A model generated the notes under the pieces. That model was not told the DNA's origin and made no database searches. It saw only the letters and a program-made list of their open reading frames with translations. Positions 3,241 to 11,902 of a stretch of 22,803 nt of DNA are shown in pieces; the first letter of the stretch is position 1; each line of letters begins with the position of its first letter. The translations under genes and the position numbers were made by a program. Where the stretch lies: IMG/VR virus record IMGVR_UViG_3300034190_000381, positions 1 to 22,803 of that record. One strand, given 5' to 3'. This stretch comes from a virus.

Positions 3241-3480
3241 ATGCTCGTTGGGTGTCCCGATCTTACTCTTGCGAAGACGTTCGGGTTCTTTACTGTACCC
3301 GCGGATATTTGTGACGGAGGTGTATGATTTGTTCATCACTTTAAGCAGGGCTTTTGCCACGTCGTTCTCTAGCCCTGTTTGATCGGCGAGGACCTTGGCC
3401 CCTGTTTCGAGGGTCCGAAGTCCTTTCTTGTAGTCCACCATGGTTTCGATTATTTGGTCGTGGGTTTCAGACTTAGCCAT
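3232..3480 (-). CDS. small hypothetical protein (82 aa)
   Basis: An 82-residue basic protein of unknown function, encoded just downstream of the SNF2-like helicase and overlapping its end by 31 bases, so the two are probably coupled. A GAGAGGA ribosome site precedes the ATG. The first two thirds are helical (HDQIIETMVDYKKGLRTLETG, then NDVAKALLKVMNKSY) and the tail is rich in Lys/Arg. No family is recognised. Its position suggests that it assists or regulates the helicase. The stop lies in the shared terminator region with the plus-strand block. Confidence 0.6.
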   Translation of the reverse strand: MAKSETHDQIIETMVDYKKGLRTLETGAKVLADQTGLENDVAKALLKVMNKSYTSVTNIRGYSKEPERLRKSKIGTPNEHKK

Positions 3481-4919
3481 TCTTTTGCGTCCTCTCCTAG
3501 AACTTTTGCGCCGATGTCGATTTTTGCTCGTAGTGCTTTTACGATCTGTTCATCGATGCTGCCTTCAGTGATCAGATCGATGTACGTTACGTTGTTCTTC
3601 TGACCGATACGGTGAGCGCGATCCTCTGATTGAACGCGCGTCTCGAGGTTGAAGTCGTTGGCATAGTACACGCACAGGTTTGCCTCTGTCAAAGTCAGTC
3701 CGTAGCCAGCAGTGGATGGGTTACCAACGAAATACTTGAGCGGATGATCAGGGTTCTGGAAGTTGAGTACCGCAGCAGCGCGATCCTCGTCTGATGTGTC
3801 CCCGAAGTACGCTGCGGCACAGCCTTGGCCGAACTTATTGTTCAGCATCTCGGTAATACCTATGATATCGTGTCGGAACCGAGACCAGATGATCGCCTTG
3901 CCATCGTGCTCGTTGATGATTTCCTCGAGCGCATCCATTCTTTTGGACGGGAAGTACAGCATCTCACCGTCATCAGTCTTGAGGTGACCTGACATGATCT
4001 GCTGCAAGCGTAGCATCTGAGTGATTACAGCGGGAGCAGTGGACATTTCACCACTTTCCAATAGGACCATGGCGTGTTTGCGGATCTGTTCGTACATATC
4101 GAACTGCTCTTTGGTCATACCAACGTACCGAGCGGTGTATATTTTCTCGGGAAGATCAAGGCAGTCCTTCTTCAGCACACGAAAACTAAACTGATCGATA
4201 CGTTGGGTTAGCTCATCAAGGTTTCGGAACCCAATGATCTGTTGGAAAGCTGCCATACCCATGGTTTTGCGCTGCACTACAGCGTACCGACCTTGGAAAG
4301 CGTAGTATGATTCGAAACCCAAGAGCCCAGGACGGAGGAACTCGCACTGCGAGTAGATATCCATTGGACTTTTTGTGACGGGAGAGCCTGTCAATAGCCT
4401 TCTGAACTTGAACTTAGCCGCGATCTTTAATAACGATTTGGTGCGCTTGGCCTTGTGGTTTTTGATCGTAGTTGATTCGTCGATGGCTATCATACCATTA
4501 GAACCAAGCGCACGACCCATCCACTCCCCGGCTGTCTGACCCTTGAGCGAGGAGAACGCTTCGACGTTCATCACAAAGATTGTCAGCCCATCGAAATCAT
4601 CTTGGACCGAGCGCATCTCTTCCTTCTGCTTTTTGTTAGGTCCACTAACCCAGCGTATCACACGGTGCGGCACGTCATCAGACATGTGCTCGGGGATTTC
4701 TTTGGCTACCCAGTTACGGTACACGCCCTTGGGAGCTAGGACCAAAGCGAAGTCTATCTCTCCCGCTTTGTACAACATACCCATGTTGTCGATCAAAACT
4801 TTTGATTTGCCTGTCCCCATTTCCATGAAGAGACCAAACTCTGTGCGGTCCCAACCGTAATCAAGAGCGTCTCTCTGGTGATTAAACGGGGGAAGTTTAA
4901 ATTTGTAGTTGACAGTCAT
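3450..4919 (-). CDS. SNF2-like SF2 helicase/ATPase
   Basis: A 489-residue DNA-dependent ATPase of superfamily 2, SNF2/DEAD-like type, that likely translocates on or remodels duplex DNA during replication or repair. In order: a Q-motif-like FNHQRDAL at 12-19, Walker A MGTGKSK at 34-40 (K38), motif Ia LVLAPKGVYRNW at 59-70, Walker B IDEST at 146-150 (D147, E148), motif III LTGSP at 176-180, and near the end AGYGLTLTEA followed by motif VI QSEDRAHRIGQ at 430-440, typical of SNF2 proteins. It is shorter than cellular SNF2 enzymes and has no extra domains. The ATG at 4919 fits the GGAGGT site best; a GTG one codon earlier is too close. It is divergent from the replication operon. Confidence 0.93.
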   Translation of the reverse strand: MTVNYKFKLPPFNHQRDALDYGWDRTEFGLFMEMGTGKSKVLIDNMGMLYKAGEIDFALVLAPKGVYRNWVAKEIPEHMSDDVPHRVIRWVSGPNKKQKEEMRSVQDDFDGLTIFVMNVEAFSSLKGQTAGEWMGRALGSNGMIAIDESTTIKNHKAKRTKSLLKIAAKFKFRRLLTGSPVTKSPMDIYSQCEFLRPGLLGFESYYAFQGRYAVVQRKTMGMAAFQQIIGFRNLDELTQRIDQFSFRVLKKDCLDLPEKIYTARYVGMTKEQFDMYEQIRKHAMVLLESGEMSTAPAVITQMLRLQQIMSGHLKTDDGEMLYFPSKRMDALEEIINEHDGKAIIWSRFRHDIIGITEMLNNKFGQGCAAAYFGDTSDEDRAAAVLNFQNPDHPLKYFVGNPSTAGYGLTLTEANLCVYYANDFNLETRVQSEDRAHRIGQKNNVTYIDLITEGSIDEQIVKALRAKIDIGAKVLGEDAKEWLSLKPTTK

Positions 4920-4995
4920 CACATACCTCCACTATTGTCTTCAGTACGGATAGCATGAGGCTACCGCACAAATCAACCCTGAAGAGGAAAAACTT
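4920..4995. promoter_or_regulatory. divergent intergenic region with imperfect inverted repeat
   Basis: This 76-base gap separates the minus-strand helicase unit from the plus-strand replication operon and should hold promoters for both. I see no box pair close to sigma70 consensus on either strand; the nearest minus-strand candidate is TTGATT and CTATCC with 17-base spacing. Between 4948 and 4965 lies GGATAGC-ATGAG-GCTACC, a 6-bp inverted repeat with one bulged base, which could be an operator. The outer parts carry the two ribosome sites (GGAGGT for the helicase, AGAGGA for the plus-strand gene). Confidence 0.4.
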
Positions 4996-5556
4996 ATGGA
5001 CGACATATTTGACGACATATTCGATGAGGCTGACGCAGTCGGTCGCGTTGATACAGGAACGGGGAAGCAGCTCAGTCAACTGGTTCGCAACCTCCGCACT
5101 GTAGAGAACGACATCGAAGATGCAGAGACTCACTTGAAAGCACTGAAGCAAGAGAAGCATAAGCTCTCTGTTGAAAACATCCCAGCCTTGATGGATGAGA
5201 TGGGTGTTGAACGCTTGGACGTAGATGGCGTGACAGTGGAGCGCAAGATGATTGTTGCCGCATCCATCCCTGTTGCGAACAAGGACCAAGCATTCGATTG
5301 GCTACGGTCCAATGGCCTAGATGATATCATCAAGAACGATGTCACCTGTTCCTTTGGTAAGGGCGAAGACAACGTGGCGGGAGATGTCATTGGCATCTTG
5401 CGTGACAAGGGTTTCGACCCCAAGACCAAGACCCACGTACATCCATCCACGTTGAAGGCGTTCGTCAAGGAACGCATCACTGACGGCAAGCCAATCGACC
5501 TCGACCTGTTCGGGGCATTCATCTCAAACACAGCAGTAATCAAGAGGAAAGCGTAA
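4996..5556 (+). CDS. coiled-coil protein heading the replication operon
   Basis: A 186-residue protein of unknown function and first gene of the replication operon. It opens acidic (MDDIFDDIFDEAD), followed by a coiled coil at about 25-60 (LRTVENDIEDAETHLKALK and QEKHKLSVE). The rest is a globular domain with DVDGVTVERK, IIKNDVTCSFGKGED and VHPSTLKAFVKER. The arrangement, N-terminal coiled coil plus globular domain next to an ssDNA-binding protein, recalls Gam-like nuclease inhibitors or recombination mediators, but I cannot place it in either family. Its TAA overlaps the ATG of the next gene (TAATG), so it is coupled to the ssDNA-binding protein and may be its partner. Confidence 0.65.
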   Translation: MDDIFDDIFDEADAVGRVDTGTGKQLSQLVRNLRTVENDIEDAETHLKALKQEKHKLSVENIPALMDEMGVERLDVDGVTVERKMIVAASIPVANKDQAFDWLRSNGLDDIIKNDVTCSFGKGEDNVAGDVIGILRDKGFDPKTKTHVHPSTLKAFVKERITDGKPIDLDLFGAFISNTAVIKRKA

Positions 5557-6350
5557 TGACTAACGCAGTAGCAACAAAACAAAATGCAGAGTTAAGCACA
5601 GACTTAATGGACGACATCCTAGAATTTGCAGGTGAAGGCGCTGCCTTTGGTGCAGATGAGATGCAGATCCCGTTCGTTCGTGCGCTCCAAGCATTGTCCC
5701 CACAACTGGGCAAGAAGAAGCCTGAGTACATCGAAGGTGCGGAGCAGGGCGATCTGTTCAACACTGTGACAGGTGAGGTCTGGAAGGGCGATGATGGCGT
5801 AACGATCATCCCTTGCTACCAGACTACAAAGTATCTGGAGTTCACACCTCGTGACCAAGGTGGAGGATTCCGCGGCGAGATCAACCCTACTGATCCAATC
5901 CTGCAGCGCACCTCGCGTCAGGGTTCCAAGGAAATCCTTCCGACAGGCAACGAACTGGTCAAGTCTGATCAGCACTTCTGCTTGGTCATGAGCAATGACG
6001 GCGCATTCCAACCTGCTGTCATCGACATGAAGTCCACGCAACTGAAGGTCAGCCGTCGCTGGAAGACACAGATTGCTATGCAAAAGATCAAGCACCCGAA
6101 GACGGGAGTCATGGTTGTGCCACCGCTGTTCGCAACAATGTGGAAGATCACCACTGTTGAGGAGAGCAATGACCAAGGTACGTGGTTCACGCCTTCTGTT
6201 GAGAAGGTCGGTCTTGTAGAGACCCGTGAACTTATGCTCGAAGCCAAAGCCTTCCGCGACAGTGTCGCTGCGGGCGAAGTGAAAGCTGCTTCAGAGGGGG
6301 TTGTCCCACCATCTCCTTCTGTCCAACAGGATGACGACATCCCGTTCTAA
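5556..6350 (+). CDS. putative ssDNA-binding protein with SSB-type tail
   Basis: A 264-residue protein that probably coats single-stranded DNA in replication. The strongest sign is its C-terminus: a flexible Pro/Ser/Gln stretch (VVPPSPSVQQ) followed by the acidic tip DDDIPF, the same peptide that bacterial SSB uses to recruit replication and repair enzymes. The body is beta-rich and Gly/Pro-containing (VTIIPCYQTTKYLEFTPR, GGGFRGEINP, VSRRWKTQIAMQK, WKITTVEES), consistent with an OB-like fold, though I cannot align it with known SSB families. It lies between a coiled-coil gene and the primase and is followed by a hairpin that could limit downstream transcription. The function is inferred from the tail and context. 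Confidence 0.7.
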   Translation: MTNAVATKQNAELSTDLMDDILEFAGEGAAFGADEMQIPFVRALQALSPQLGKKKPEYIEGAEQGDLFNTVTGEVWKGDDGVTIIPCYQTTKYLEFTPRDQGGGFRGEINPTDPILQRTSRQGSKEILPTGNELVKSDQHFCLVMSNDGAFQPAVIDMKSTQLKVSRRWKTQIAMQKIKHPKTGVMVVPPLFATMWKITTVEESNDQGTWFTPSVEKVGLVETRELMLEAKAFRDSVAAGEVKAASEGVVPPSPSVQQDDDIPF

Positions 6351-6358
6351 GCAGCCTC

Positions 6359-6405
6359 GGGAGTGGCGACGACTGTTGGCGCATTCTCCACGCCACTCCC
6401 ATTTT
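6359..6405 (+). terminator. hairpin attenuator or terminator after the ssDNA-binding gene
   Basis: A perfect 10-bp inverted repeat (GGGAGTGGCG at 6359-6368 and CGCCACTCCC at 6391-6400) with a 22-base loop lies just after the stop of the ssDNA-binding gene and is followed by ATTTT. The stem is GC-rich and stable. Because the downstream primase is on the same strand without an obvious promoter, the hairpin may act as a partial terminator or mRNA stabiliser that raises ssDNA-binding protein relative to the rest. Confidence 0.65.
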
Positions 6406-6423
6406 CCACAACAGGAGCAGTAC

Positions 6424-7956
6424 ATGACACAGGCAAAGAGATTGCTTGCAGTATTCGTCGGTGCAAAGGCTGCACATGGCACGACCACAGTGGGTCGCAT
6501 CGGACGTAACGGTAAAGCAGAATCCAAAAGTATGATTGTCCGCAATCCTCTGACAGAAGAACTTGTTCAGGGCCACATAGATGGCAAGCAAGGTGTCGGG
6601 GCGATTCCAATCAACGAAGAAAACAAGTGCCAGTTTGGTGCGTTAGATATCGACATCTACGATCTCAACCACAACGAGGTGCAAGAGAAGATACAGAAGA
6701 TGAAGCTGCCCTTGATCCATTGCCGATCAAAGTCTGGCGGCGCACACCTGTACCTCTTCCTGAAAGAGATGGAGCAGGCTGCTGTTATCCGAGATTACCT
6801 GACCGAGATGTCTATAGCTTTAGGCTACAGCGGCTGCGAAGTATTCCCGAAGCAAGACACGATCATCGCGGAGCGTGGAGACGTAGGCAACTTCATCAAC
6901 ATGCCGTACTTTGATGCAGAGTTACCGCAGCGGTATGCCTTCAACGAGAAGTGCGAAGCCTTGGAACTCGACGATTTCTTGGATGCGGTGGACAAGGCAC
7001 GAGTTTCGCTGTCCGACCTCGAGGCTATGCGCCTGTCCAAGCCTCGCAAGTATTTCACAGACGGACCACCCTGCCTCGAGCATCTGTTCGCAGAGGGGCC
7101 TATATCTGAGTTCCGCAACAACACTTTCTTTAACGTGGCTCGGTACTGCAAGATGAAGAGCCCTGATGATTGGAAGGATGAGTTCGAGGGATACAACCGG
7201 ACTTTGTCCAGCCCTCCGCTACCGTCCAGCGAGATCGTCAACCTGAGTAAGCAGCACGAGAAGAAAGAGTATCTGTATACCTGCAAGGAAGAACCGATGC
7301 GCAGCTACTGCGATCCGGCGATCTGCGCTACTCGCAAGCACGGCATTGGATCCGATGGCCCAGACGCTGTGGCTGTAGGTGGACTTACAATTATGCTGTC
7401 GGAGCCTCGTCTGTTCTTTATGGACGTTGATGGTGACCGAATCCAGTTGAGCACGGAGCAGTTGCAGAACCAGACGTTGTTCCAGCGGGCGTGTATGGAT
7501 CAAAAGAACATGATGCCTCCGACGATGAAGCCTCAGAAGTGGCAGCAGTTGGTTAACAGTTTGATGCAAGGTGCTACCTTCTTGGATGTACCACCAGAAC
7601 TCACGATCTCAGGGCAGTTTAAGGATCACCTCCGCTCGTACTGCACAAGCCACGTACGAGCCATGTCTCCTGAAGAGATCGAAATGAACAAACCTTGGAC
7701 CGATGCAGGTACAACCAAGTTTAAACTCGATGGTCTTCTGGAGTATCTGCACCACCGTAGGTTCAGCGCACTGACCAGAGGGCAGATCATGCAGATGATC
7801 CGTGATCTTGGTGGCGACACTGGGAAACAGAACATAATGAAGCGCACCTCAAAGGGCGAGGCACGGTCCACGCTGCGATGCTGGGTAATCCCTGCGTTCG
7901 AAGAAGAGGAAATAGAACTACCAGTCAAGGAGATCTCAAATGACATCCCATTCTAA
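6424..7956 (+). CDS. archaeo-eukaryotic-type primase with SSB-like tail
   Basis: A 510-residue primase of the AEP superfamily, close to the TOTE-type or primase-polymerase branch, expected to make primers or extend DNA at phage forks. Visible: the metal motif ALDIDIYD (D75, D77), the RSKSGGAHLYLFL segment with the S-x-H motif (H108), and the third acidic site GCEVFPKQ (E139). After it comes PPCLEHL at 215-221, then YTCKEEP, SYCDPAICAT at 295-303; Cys217, 287, 296 and 301 form a four-cysteine set like the PriL C-terminal Fe-S/zinc domain. A winged-helix-like part follows, and the protein ends EISNDIPF. ATG at 6424 is chosen for its AGGAG site; an upstream TTG would overlap the ssDNA-binding gene and hairpin. 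Confidence 0.85.
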   Translation: MTQAKRLLAVFVGAKAAHGTTTVGRIGRNGKAESKSMIVRNPLTEELVQGHIDGKQGVGAIPINEENKCQFGALDIDIYDLNHNEVQEKIQKMKLPLIHCRSKSGGAHLYLFLKEMEQAAVIRDYLTEMSIALGYSGCEVFPKQDTIIAERGDVGNFINMPYFDAELPQRYAFNEKCEALELDDFLDAVDKARVSLSDLEAMRLSKPRKYFTDGPPCLEHLFAEGPISEFRNNTFFNVARYCKMKSPDDWKDEFEGYNRTLSSPPLPSSEIVNLSKQHEKKEYLYTCKEEPMRSYCDPAICATRKHGIGSDGPDAVAVGGLTIMLSEPRLFFMDVDGDRIQLSTEQLQNQTLFQRACMDQKNMMPPTMKPQKWQQLVNSLMQGATFLDVPPELTISGQFKDHLRSYCTSHVRAMSPEEIEMNKPWTDAGTTKFKLDGLLEYLHHRRFSALTRGQIMQMIRDLGGDTGKQNIMKRTSKGEARSTLRCWVIPAFEEEEIELPVKEISNDIPF

Positions 7957-8155
7957 CAAGCTGATGCGGGTATCAGACGTAGCAGAGTTGCTCGGGGTAT
8001 CTAAGTCCTACGTCTACAAGCTGGCGTCTACCGACCCATCATTCCCAGTACCGATCGTGCTTGGGTCCGAACACAAGAAGCGATCATCGAGCCGTTGGGT
8101 TCTGACAGAGATCGAGGACTGGGTGAACTCTAGACCACGGGGGAAAGAACTATGA
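7940..8155 (+). CDS. AlpA-like winged HTH protein
   Basis: A 71-residue MerR/excisionase-type HTH protein of the AlpA family. The helix-turn-helix MRVSDVAELLGVSKSYVYKL at 9-28 is followed by a wing around FPVPIVLGS, a basic HKKRSSSRW turn and the usual closing helix EIEDWVNSR at 57-65. AlpA proteins act as transcription regulators or recombination directionality factors. Its start lies in the last codons of the primase, and its stop overlaps the helicase start (ATGA). No integrase is visible here, so regulation or origin-related DNA binding is as likely as excision. Confidence 0.85.
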   Translation: MTSHSNKLMRVSDVAELLGVSKSYVYKLASTDPSFPVPIVLGSEHKKRSSSRWVLTEIEDWVNSRPRGKEL

Positions 8156-9681
8156 TACCCAATGCAAAGCTACTACTAGGTCCGCCTGGCTGCGGGAAAA
8201 CCTACCGCCTGATACAAGAGATTAAGGCTGCGCTTCAAGCTGGGACCCACCCGTCTCGCATTGGCGTGATCTCGTTCACTCGTAAGGCGATCGAGGAGAT
8301 GATCTCTCGCTCCTGTGCTGAGTTCAACCTACAGGCTAAAGACTTTCCGTACATGAAGACCAGTCATGCATTCGGGTTCCATGGACTTGGGCTCAAGACC
8401 ACAGACATCATGGACCCAGAGGACTACAACAACATTGGCAGGGAGATCGGCCTCACCTTCGAGGGCAAGGACTTCACGTCGGTTGACGGCGGCGTAACTC
8501 TCCCCACGATCGGTGGATCAGGGGCACGTTACCTGCAGCTGGACAGCCGTGCGCGTCTGCGGATGATCGACATCGAACAGGAATACAACGACGAAGCGGA
8601 TTGGAACCTGTTCTTTGCCAAGCTACAGCAACTGTCTGCCCAGTTGGTCGAGTACAAACGATCAGTGGACAAATACGATTTCGTTGACATGATCGAGCAG
8701 TACATCGAGCACGGCGAGGTTCCCAACTTGGACTACCTGTTCATTGACGAGGCCCAAGACTTCACGCCTCTACAGTGGGAGATGGCCAAGAAGATTGCTG
8801 CGTCTGCTGAGAACGTGTGGATCGCTGGAGATGATGACCAAGCCATCCACCGTTGGACAGGCGTGGATGTTAATCTGTTTAACAAAAGTTCGGACAACAT
8901 CGAGGTGCTGTCCCAGTCCTATCGCATACCCAAGTCGGTACACAGAGTAGCTAACAAGATCTCCAAGCGGATCGGTGGTCGTCACGAAAAGATCTTTACC
9001 TCTCGGGATGAGGAGGGCAGCGTAGAGTACGTCAACTACCTGTCCGAGGTTCCACTGTCCTCTGGGTCGTTTACTTTGATGGCTCGAACCAATGGGTACG
9101 TGTCTGAGATGGCGAACTACTTGCGGTCCAACGGGTTCAAGTATTCCCGCAATGGTAAGTCCAGCCTGTCCGATGATCTGGTCGGCAACATTATGACGTG
9201 GGACACCCTGTGCCAAGACAGACCTGTCGGTGTGCAGCAGATTAAAACGCTTTACTCTGGTGTTAAGAAGCAGGGTAAAGATGCGGTTGTCCGCAGAGGA
9301 TCAACTCAGATGCTGGATGCGTTGGCACCGGAAGACATGTTGGACATGGACACCCTGATCAAGGACTACGGTCTGCAAAGGGACGCCTCTAGCAGCGCAT
9401 ACGATGTGCTGAATGTTTCGTCCTCTGAGCGGGACTACATCGATGCAATCTTCCGCCGAGGAGAAGACCTTCTGTCTGCGCCTCGTATCAAGGTCTCCAC
9501 GTTCCATGCTATGAAGGGCGGGGAGGATGACAACTGCGTGGTTTGGACAGCATCGACCAAGGCCTGTGTGCAGAGCAAGTTCCCTGACGATGAGCACCGA
9601 GCGTTCTACGTTGGTGTTACCCGAGCCAGACACAATCTCTACATCCTGCAATCCGACAACAAGTATAGGTACTCGCTATGA
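8152..9681 (+). CDS. UvrD/PcrA-like SF1 DNA helicase
   Basis: A 509-residue superfamily 1A helicase that unwinds DNA 3'-5' by family precedent. Motifs in order: Walker A GPPGCGKT at 10-17 (K16), motif Ia VISFTRKAIEEM, Walker B FIDEAQD at 197-203, motif III GDDDQAIHRW at 226-235, motif IV SQSYRIP, motif V STFHAMKGGE at 449-458, and motif VI YVGVTRARHN at 486-495. It is considerably shorter than PcrA/UvrD (about 700 aa), mainly in the 1B/2B inserts, as common in phage enzymes. It sits between the AlpA-like protein and the polymerase genes. No DnaB-type replicative helicase is visible in the window, so it may serve at the fork, or it may act in recombination. Confidence 0.95.
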   Translation: MIPNAKLLLGPPGCGKTYRLIQEIKAALQAGTHPSRIGVISFTRKAIEEMISRSCAEFNLQAKDFPYMKTSHAFGFHGLGLKTTDIMDPEDYNNIGREIGLTFEGKDFTSVDGGVTLPTIGGSGARYLQLDSRARLRMIDIEQEYNDEADWNLFFAKLQQLSAQLVEYKRSVDKYDFVDMIEQYIEHGEVPNLDYLFIDEAQDFTPLQWEMAKKIAASAENVWIAGDDDQAIHRWTGVDVNLFNKSSDNIEVLSQSYRIPKSVHRVANKISKRIGGRHEKIFTSRDEEGSVEYVNYLSEVPLSSGSFTLMARTNGYVSEMANYLRSNGFKYSRNGKSSLSDDLVGNIMTWDTLCQDRPVGVQQIKTLYSGVKKQGKDAVVRRGSTQMLDALAPEDMLDMDTLIKDYGLQRDASSSAYDVLNVSSSERDYIDAIFRRGEDLLSAPRIKVSTFHAMKGGEDDNCVVWTASTKACVQSKFPDDEHRAFYVGVTRARHNLYILQSDNKYRYSL

Positions 9682-9971
9682 AACGTGATGAAGTATTAGA
9701 CACCGCAAAAGAACTGATCAATGGACAGAGGGCCAAGGACTACGGGGATGCGTTCGATAACTTCGAGCGGATCGCTGAAGGATGGAACGCCATCATCCGA
9801 GAGGCCATGGTTACCCACGGTTATGTGACCGAGCAGCACGTTGCGTTGATGATGGACTGGCTCAAGACAGCACGTCTGCTCAACGACTTGTCCAACGCAG
9901 ACTCATGGATCGATAAGTGTGGGTACAGTGCGCTTGGGGCAGAGTTTTCGGACAGAAAGACTAAGCCATGA
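9678..9971 (+). CDS. DUF6378-like phage protein
   Basis: A 97-residue helical protein matching the pattern of the DUF6378 family of phage proteins often found beside replication genes. Seen: RAKDYGDAFDNFERIAEGW at 18-36, HVALMMDWLKTARLL at 54-68, then D-SW-DKCGY near 75-82. The conserved Asp/Tyr/Trp and the MM--LK-AR helix are characteristic. The arrangement of acidic residues on helices recalls MazG-type all-alpha NTP pyrophosphohydrolases, but the typical EExxE motif is not present, so an enzymatic role is uncertain. It overlaps both neighbours at ATGA junctions, which ties its expression to the helicase and the polymerase. Confidence 0.75.
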   Translation: MKRDEVLDTAKELINGQRAKDYGDAFDNFERIAEGWNAIIREAMVTHGYVTEQHVALMMDWLKTARLLNDLSNADSWIDKCGYSALGAEFSDRKTKP

Positions 9972-11902
9972 GCCAGAAGAACCTGTTTTCGGAAGACGGC
10001 GGAGAGCATAGTGATCTTAGCTACCATATCAAAGGCGAGATGGATATCATCGAGGTCGATTGGAACATCCCTACTGAGTACCCTGATCTGACAGCCTACA
10101 AAGAAGTGGCCGTCGATCTGGAAACCAAAGACCCGAACCTGACAACCTTGGGCCCAGGTTGGGCGAGGAACGATGGGCACATCATAGGCATTGCTGTAGC
10201 TGCAGGAGAGTACAAGGGGTACTTCCCTATCCGGCACGAGAACGGGCACAACCTAGATCCGCGGATCACGATGAAGTGGCTGAAGAAGCAGATGTCTGTT
10301 CCGGGGATGGACGTGATCATGCACAACGCCACCTATGATGCGGGTTGGCTGAGAGCCGAGGGCGTCGAGATCGAGGGTCGTATCATCGACACGATGGTGA
10401 CAGGCGCATTGGTGGACGAGAACCGTTGGACCTTTGGCCTTGATGCGATGGCCCGTGACTATGCTGGTATCCGCAAGGACGAGAAGCTGCTCAAGGCTGC
10501 TGCTCTAGAGCGTGGACTAAACCCCAAGTCAGAGATGTACAAGCTGCCCCCTAAGTTTGTTGGTGGGTATGCTGAGATGGACGCTGTTGCTACGCTGGCA
10601 TTGTGGCAAGCCCTGAAGGTGCTGATCGACAAGGATGAACTGTGGGATGTTTGGAACCTTGAGATCGGCTTGATCCCCTGCATGTTGGACATGCGTACCA
10701 AGGGTGTGCGGGTGGATCTTGAGAAGGCAGAGCGCAACAAGAAGTCTCTCCGTGAGCAGAGCAAATACCTGCGTGGTGTGCTTGAGAAAGAAGCCAACAT
10801 GGACGTGGACATCTGGGCGTCCGCATCTATCCAGAAGATGTTCGACAAGCTGGATCTGGAATACCCAAGGACCGAGAAGGGTGCGCCATCATTCACCAAG
10901 TCATTTCTCAATGATCACCCAGCTAAGATCGCACAGGTTCTCGTCAAGCTGCGAGAGTTTGACAAAGCTGACAGCACGTTTATCGACAGCATCCTGCGAC
11001 ACGAAACCAACGGGCGCATCCATACGGAACTGCACTCCACACGTAGGGATCAGGGCGGCACGGTGACGGGTAGATTCTCGTCATCTAACCCTAACCTACA
11101 GCAGATTCCAGCACGAGACCCTGACATCAAGCGTTTGATCCGTGGCCTGTTCATACCAGAAGAGGGCTGCAAGTGGGGATCGTTTGACTACTCGAGCCAA
11201 GAGCCGAGGTTGTTGGTTCACTTCGCATCGATGATCCCGTCTACGATCAGGCATCCTGTTGTGGACGATATCGTGGAGGAGTTTAACAACGGTGACGTGG
11301 ACTTGCACCAGATGGTAGCGGACTTAGCTAACATCACACGTAAGCAAGCCAAGACCGTGAACCTCGGGATCATGTACGGCATGGGCGTGGCTAAACTGGC
11401 TGACCAGCTGGGCATTTCCAAGGAAGACGCCAAGGATCTGATCGAAAGACACCACACCAAAGTACCTTTCGTTAAAGGTCTGGCAGACTTGGCCTCTAAG
11501 CAGGGGGACAGGAACGGGCAGATACGCACCCTGATGGGCCGTAAGAGCCGCTTCCACCTCTGGGAGCCTGTCACCTTCGGAGCAGGCAAACCACTGCCCT
11601 ACGACGAAGCTGTGAAGGAGTACGGGGGTGCGGGTGGTAGAGGCATACGCCGTGCGTTTACATACAAGGCTCTGAACAAGCTGATCCAAGGATCGGCGGC
11701 GGACCAAACTAAAAAAGCTATGCTCGATTGCTACAACGAGGGGTTCACCCCTATGCTGACGGTGCATGACGAACTATGCTTTAACATAGAGAGTGAAGAA
11801 CAAACCGCTCGGATCAAAGAGATCATGGAGACGGGGATCAAGCTCTCTATACCATCGAAGATTGACGTAGACATAAAAGAAGATTGGGGAGAAATCGAAT
11901 GA
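9968..11902 (+). CDS. polA: family A DNA polymerase with 3'-5' exonuclease
   Basis: A 644-residue replicative polymerase of the Pol I type without a 5'-3' exonuclease domain. The proofreading domain is complete: Exo I VDLET (D50, E52), Exo II HNATYDAGW (D124) and Exo III YAEMD (Y201, D205). The polymerase part has TGRFSSSNPNLQQIP, motif A FDYSSQEPR (D407), the O-helix RKQAKTVNLGIMYGMG (about 458-473) and motif C VHDE (D601). In the O-helix the residue matching E. coli Phe762 is Leu466, while the following Tyr (equivalent of Tyr766) is kept. The gene is coupled to the DUF6378-like gene before and overlaps the next start. It is the core of the phage replisome. Confidence 0.97.
   Translation: MSQKNLFSEDGGEHSDLSYHIKGEMDIIEVDWNIPTEYPDLTAYKEVAVDLETKDPNLTTLGPGWARNDGHIIGIAVAAGEYKGYFPIRHENGHNLDPRITMKWLKKQMSVPGMDVIMHNATYDAGWLRAEGVEIEGRIIDTMVTGALVDENRWTFGLDAMARDYAGIRKDEKLLKAAALERGLNPKSEMYKLPPKFVGGYAEMDAVATLALWQALKVLIDKDELWDVWNLEIGLIPCMLDMRTKGVRVDLEKAERNKKSLREQSKYLRGVLEKEANMDVDIWASASIQKMFDKLDLEYPRTEKGAPSFTKSFLNDHPAKIAQVLVKLREFDKADSTFIDSILRHETNGRIHTELHSTRRDQGGTVTGRFSSSNPNLQQIPARDPDIKRLIRGLFIPEEGCKWGSFDYSSQEPRLLVHFASMIPSTIRHPVVDDIVEEFNNGDVDLHQMVADLANITRKQAKTVNLGIMYGMGVAKLADQLGISKEDAKDLIERHHTKVPFVKGLADLASKQGDRNGQIRTLMGRKSRFHLWEPVTFGAGKPLPYDEAVKEYGGAGGRGIRRAFTYKALNKLIQGSAADQTKKAMLDCYNEGFTPMLTVHDELCFNIESEEQTARIKEIMETGIKLSIPSKIDVDIKEDWGEIE

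Follow-up and report, generated by a model that had tools for sequence, protein, structure and literature searches.

Bacterial SSB, the single-stranded DNA (ssDNA)-binding protein, carries at its extreme C-terminus a run of acidic residues followed by I-P-F (SSB-Ct; PMC5872125). Why should two adjacent genes of a virus both encode proteins with such an end, when one of them is a primase? The question is raised by IMG/VR virus record IMGVR_UViG_3300034190_000381, all 22,803 bases of which were analyzed and are referred to here as the window. The C-terminus of an SSB-like protein reads ...SVQQDDDIPF and that of the primase encoded next to it ...VKEISNDIPF, exactly as an earlier note on this sequence had claimed. 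We find that the two tips are conserved, that they co-evolve across phage lineages, and that they match each other rather than the tip of the host SSB. With a probability that we put at roughly 55%, the archaeo-eukaryotic primase (AEP) and its cognate SSB-like protein share one type of docking peptide, borne on flexible tails, that recognizes a single site on a phage-encoded component of the replisome.

An archaeo-eukaryotic primase and an SSB-like protein

The primase is of the archaeo-eukaryotic rather than the DnaG type. In addition to its match to the AEP-TOTE family, it aligns structurally with the Prim-Pol domain of the CRISPR-associated Prim-Pol (CAPP; 7nqf), with a Z-score of 20.6 over 191 residues, and residues D75, D77, S104 and H108 of the DxD and SxxxH motifs are invariant (51 sequences), as are C287, C296 and C301. 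No helicase domain was matched in the primase, unlike the TOPRIM-type primase of T7, which is fused to a hexameric helicase. In the AlphaFold2 (AF2) monomer model, the primase tail has predicted local distance difference test scores (pLDDT) of 61–72 and is not confidently docked. A second short motif, E/F-x-L/T/V-P, recurs at many loci in the primase tail, approximately 10 residues before the tip.

The SSB-like protein belongs to the uncharacterized Pfam family Pam3_Gp34, the profile of which spans its residues 16–243; the canonical SSB family PF00436 had no match in this protein, or anywhere else in the record, in a profile search. The AF2 model has a predicted OB-type core at residues ~36–244 (core pLDDT ~93), and residues 248–264 have a pLDDT below 50, which fits a flexible tail. 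The top rows of a VIA-align comparison are ssDNA-binding OB proteins, namely the BRCA2 OB (Z 6.8), the T4 gp32 core (Z 6.6 over 152 residues) and RB69 gp32 (Z 6.6), these Z-scores, 5–7 overall, lying below 8 and thus being too low to prove a common fold. A Foldseek search of the model against the PDB returned nothing below an E-value of 0.001, the structural matches in BFVD are mostly uncharacterized phage proteins, and the profile of the SSB-like family had no match among PDB sequences. Judging from the predicted core, the protein probably binds ssDNA. An Enc34-type identity was considered for the downstream SSB of the PSA28-like phages and ruled out, this protein being a Pam3_Gp34 member instead.

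Conservation of the tips

The first scan for homologues used internal peptides of the primase, with the tail outside every search pattern, and yielded 80 loci, the most distant at 35% identity. A PF end is present in every one of the 80 primases and of the 59 partner SSB-like proteins that could be read. The earlier note had proposed comparing the primase end with the preceding 30 residues, and the difference is pronounced: in the nr90 sets neither protein shows any variation in its final P and F (100% identity), whereas positions −7 to −36 average 32% identity in the primase and 15% in the SSB-like protein. Both proteins thus possess an SSB-Ct-type tail, that is, a flexible tail that ends in acidic-x-P-F and has a tip conserved above its linker.

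Later scans raised the set to 486 readable primase/SSB-like pairs. Across 73 lineages (less than 70% primase identity), 71% of the SSB-like proteins and 73% of the primases end in F, and 55% and 52%, respectively, end in PF; among the control neighbors in the same genomes (UvrD, PolA, DUF7307, SNF2 and the helix-turn-helix (HTH) protein), an F end is found in 0–6% and a PF end in 0%. Synonymous variation is seen in the P, I and F codons of the tip, which is retained with or without an overlap with the next gene, so that it is a protein-level trait. An overlap with the downstream HTH gene is ruled out as the cause of the conservation, given this synonymous change and given that the tip is kept where the overlap includes the tip, where it is of the ATGA type only, and where there is none.

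The two tips change in parallel

The tips differ between clades, and they do so in pairs. Given as SSB-like protein/primase, the window clade has DDDIPF/NDIPF, the DSL-LC04 clade mostly APF, VPF and similar ends/SPF, the HTVC027P clade QDIV/ENIV (in 77 of 78 readable primases and all readable partners) and the 023Pt clade STPY/PYQxENF. The pairs KQPY/EAPY and EAPY/ETPY were found in SAR11 single-cell genomes, MPY/EPY in a Sneathiella genome, ETEL/EPDL and EPEL/EPDL in two PSA28 relatives (the remaining relatives match more loosely), and IPFA/PPFV in ct3Et533, the annotation of which had the SSB-like gene on the wrong strand; EL, EM or HF tips occur in further lineages. At L082:4104-4886 (MW202510.1), the annotation omits the SSB-like gene and gives the opposite-strand open reading frame UOF78077.1 in its place.

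Among 30–32 lineages with less than 50% identity, 16–19 matches of tip class were counted against ~7.5 expected (p ≤ 1.5e-4). In a phylogeny-aware test, a two-state model was fitted on a tree of the primase and the SSB core, and the traits were simulated independently over 95 lineages. The PF ends of the two proteins are correlated with a phi of 0.62 (p 0.0007) and the presence of proline at −2 with a phi of 0.59 (p 0.0003); on four alternative trees of a 62-lineage subset, the PF correlation has a p of 0.001.

Relation to known systems

The primase-helicase of phage T7, gp4, cannot bind the family-A polymerase gp5 without its acidic tail and terminal Phe (PMC12230644), and basic patches of gp5 are what this tail contacts (PMC12230644, PMC12593628). 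An acidic tail is also implicated in the contacts that the T7 SSB, gp2.5, makes with the polymerase and with gp4 (PMC5686142). The author of the earlier note had not seen a pairing of this kind described for phage primases; the T7 gp4 and gp2.5 tails are a precedent that it overlooked (PMC12230644, PMC5686142). Here, as in T7, the SSB and the primase of one phage have tails of one kind, and a family-A polymerase is also encoded in the window and in its relatives. The two T7 tails are reportedly interchangeable. The present system differs from T7 in its stand-alone AEP primase, its Pam3_Gp34 SSB-like protein, its bacterial-type x-P-F tip and in having a candidate partner only.

The likeness to the bacterial SSB-Ct lies in the same DDDIPF tip in the window clade, and the difference in that neither phage protein belongs to PF00436, that one of the carriers is a primase, and that the tips drift in parallel to PY, IV, PFA and EL. 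Recruitment of the eukaryotic PrimPol by RPA likewise links an AEP primase to the system of ssDNA-binding proteins at forks (PMC5457501); in that case PrimPol binds RPA, whereas in the phage the primase and the ssDNA-binding-like protein carry one and the same tip. The matching tips are accordingly a variant of the SSB-Ct and of T7 tail sharing and not a new principle. A literature search for SSB-Ct-like tips of phage AEP primases found none, a weak negative as it covered open-licence papers only.

A candidate receptor

Residues that track the tip class were sought by a column scan of PolA (full-length), UvrD, SNF2, DUF7307 and the cores of the two tipped proteins, with trait simulation on the tree and gaps treated as missing data. 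Two residues reached a phi of 1.00, each with 50 concordant lineages: W65 of PolA (DPNLTTLGPGW, after DLET), which tracks the presence of PF on both tips (p 0.004), and F399 of the primase, which tracks the tip class (p < 0.00125); the corresponding null maxima were ~0.69 and ~0.66. For the other proteins the p values were 0.046 (SNF2), 0.065 (SSB core), and 0.17 and 0.24 for the rest. In the wider nr90 set, all 94 lineages with W65 have an F-ended SSB-like protein, PF in 86 of them, and a PF end occurs in 1 of the 35 lineages without W65. The HTVC023P clade, in which the primase has no tip, has W65 in PolA and PF on the SSB-like protein, and PolA is present in every isolate genome and in nearly every large record searched. 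Tentatively, the family-A polymerase may be the shared receptor; it is the leading candidate, on the T7 precedent and a modest statistical hint. In L661/L663 and L712/L720 a single frame of 971–980 amino acids contains a PolA domain split by several hundred residues, apparently an intein or another in-frame insertion.

Competing explanations

If both tips have a common receptor, as their matching ends suggest, the primase and the SSB-like protein would be recruited, exchanged or made to compete at one shared site, for example in passing a fresh primer on an SSB-coated template to the polymerase. The logic of T7 would then recur with different components, the one type of docking peptide being carried by an AEP primase and by a Pam3_Gp34 protein. 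It is conceivable, though we would rather bet against it, that the tips constitute a lineage-specific code in which the ends match because both have to fit a single pocket that co-evolves with them on a replisome protein made by the phage, perhaps the loop of the PolA exonuclease domain around W65, independently of the host SSB-Ct network.

Several observations weigh against a docking peptide shared at one site, or against PolA as its receptor. The correlation of the tips is imperfect, 18 of the 95 lineages being discordant for PF, and the primases of Nanhaivirus (R26L, Pan1, R5C) and of the HTVC023P clade lack the tip, PF being kept on their SSB-like proteins. Tip-less homologues of the primase had been named in the earlier note as grounds for refutation; they are confined to these two side lineages. 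Because exceptions occur in several lineages, the pairing is to be regarded as widespread and not obligatory. The PolA signal comes from one scan, with several tests made; W65 and F399 changed only ~3–6 times on the trees; and F399 of the primase scores equal to or better than W65. The PolA loop has V at the place of W65 in the phages Epa43 and Rhizobium TM26, both of which have PF-tipped primase-helicases, and W65 is thereby ruled out as a general docking residue.

The window-clade DIPF is identical to the host SSB-Ct, the 11 host SSB ends examined are all DD[DE]IPF (four come from SAR11 genomes, none from the HTVC027P host strain), and the pockets for the SSB-Ct are basic and accommodate its terminal Phe together with the carboxylate of that residue (PMC5872125). 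Both tips could on these grounds be imitations of the host SSB tip that dock on the SSB-Ct pockets of PriA, chi, RecO, ExoI or DnaG and draw host factors to phage DNA. We consider this unlikely, since the tips of SAR11-type phages became PY or IV and the SAR11 SSBs stayed as they were, since other lineages have EL, EM and HF tips, and since each phage tip resembles its partner and not the host tip. IV tips are carried by HTVC027P, a phage isolated on a Pelagibacter strain, and in the SAR11 cells with the PY-tipped phage contigs L575 and L599 the SSBs of the cells' own genomes (L627 and L626) have the normal tip, the link between contig and cell being assumed. Mimicry of the host tip therefore does not explain the PY lineages. 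Of the earlier proposal of a partner or pocket common to the primase tip and the SSB-like protein, the sharing itself gains from the conservation and correlated evolution of the tips, and the version with a host partner is weakened by the SAR11 SSBs examined. An equally doubtful alternative places the SSB-tip pocket in the primase itself, its own tail acting in cis as a copy that obstructs this pocket until SSB-coated DNA displaces it, a form of autoregulation, or that links primase molecules. The perfect tracking of tip class by F399 would fit such an arrangement, as would the HTVC023P-clade representative L456, where the primase has lost both tip and F399 and the tip of the SSB-like protein stays, and E. 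coli DnaG is known to bind the SSB-Ct (PMC5872125). That same persistence of the SSB-like tip despite the loss of F399 would call for another receptor, however, the AF2 monomer does not dock the tail with confidence, and the near-perfect collinearity of F399 and W65 prevents the data from telling them apart. Common ancestry and composition bias, finally, might produce look-alike tips without any function, as neighboring genes are inherited together and deep lineages cluster by tip type on the tree. This we regard as very improbable, because the linkers diverge while the tips stay, the control neighbors never end in PF, the correlation survives phylogenetic simulation, the codons change synonymously, and the switches are repeated and parallel.

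A docking peptide shared by primase and SSB-like protein would extend the T7 principle of tail sharing to a wide range of environmental phages, marine and freshwater ones among them, whose replication proteins are unstudied. The tip could serve as a sequence signature for finding SSB-like proteins and primases that work together, and its natural variants (PF, PY, IV, PFA, EL) offer ready-made swaps for finding the shared receptor. A peptide that is identical to the host SSB-Ct in one clade and divergent in others also bears on the question of how the replisomes of phages detach themselves from the host SSB network or draw on it.

Tips in other phages

The pairing recurs with a different primase architecture and with distant genes in Pseudomonas phage Epa43, in which a primase-helicase of the DUF5906 type ends in DKNPF and a Pam3_Gp34 protein encoded ~14 kb away ends in GKAPF. 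In the Pbunavirus Ab27, which has a Pol III-type polymerase, the SSB-like protein ends in AEEF, and no other F-tipped protein was found among the genes checked. The Prim-Pol helicase of Vibrio phage 69E27.1 has no tip. The same phage encodes a separate protein of 159 amino acids ending in PPMDFDDDIPF (L728:11990-12469), apparently a host-type SSB, and its nearby Pam3_Gp34 protein ends in DIPAEM.

AEP-type primase-helicases of other phage and prophage lineages (L604:4986-7247, L608:2201-4954, L615:4905-7688, L721, L722 and L723) are also PF-ended, with DEDIPF in Mesorhizobium, DEDIPF and DEDLPF in Rhodospirillales, SDTPF in Rhizobium phage TM26, DKPPF in YuA and DKNPF in Epa43; among these lineages, a Pam3_Gp34 gene was seen in Epa43 only. 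The PF tip may thus be more widespread among phage AEP primases. In 190 genomes from the class of the Mesorhizobium genome, a search for AEP-TOTE gave one further match only.

Gene context in the window

Table 1. Replication genes, tips and tracked residues in the window
Feature	Position	Strand	Evidence or remark
SNF2-type helicase	3450-4922	-	PF00176; control protein without tip
DUF7307 (Pam3 gp33-like) neighbor	4996-5556	+	PF23984, E 6e-30; control protein without tip
SSB-like protein, 264 aa, Pam3_Gp34 (PF23977)	5556-6350	+	Pfam, E 9e-68
SSB-like protein C-terminal tip DDDIPF	6330-6347	+	sequence; conserved
AEP-family primase, 510 aa	6424-7956	+	AEP-TOTE PF22548, E 5e-14
Primase F399 codon	7618-7620	+	residue tracks tip class across lineages
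Primase C-terminal tip NDIPF	7939-7953	+	sequence; PF end in 80/80 homologues
Small AlpA-like HTH gene	7940-8155	+	start overlaps primase gene end (tip codons and stop) by 17 nucleotides
UvrD-like helicase	8152-9681	+	candidate partner; without significant correlated signal
DUF6378	9678-9971	+	
Family-A DNA polymerase (PolA) with 3'-5' exonuclease domain	9968-11902	+	PF00476/PF01612; candidate shared receptor
PolA W65 codon, GPGW loop after exonuclease motif DLET	10160-10162	+	

The primase start was taken as the ATG at 6424, as an alternative TTG at 6301 would overlap the upstream gene. A protein of 174 amino acids encoded at 2427-2951 has a weak match to S1CSD-TOTE-2 (E-value 0.002, below the cut-off) and is possibly nucleic-acid-binding. 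The UvrD-like helicases of the window and its relatives have a conserved hydrophobic last residue, L or I in 48 of 59 and often within Tyr-x-Leu/Ile, which may be the end of the fold or a further docking motif.

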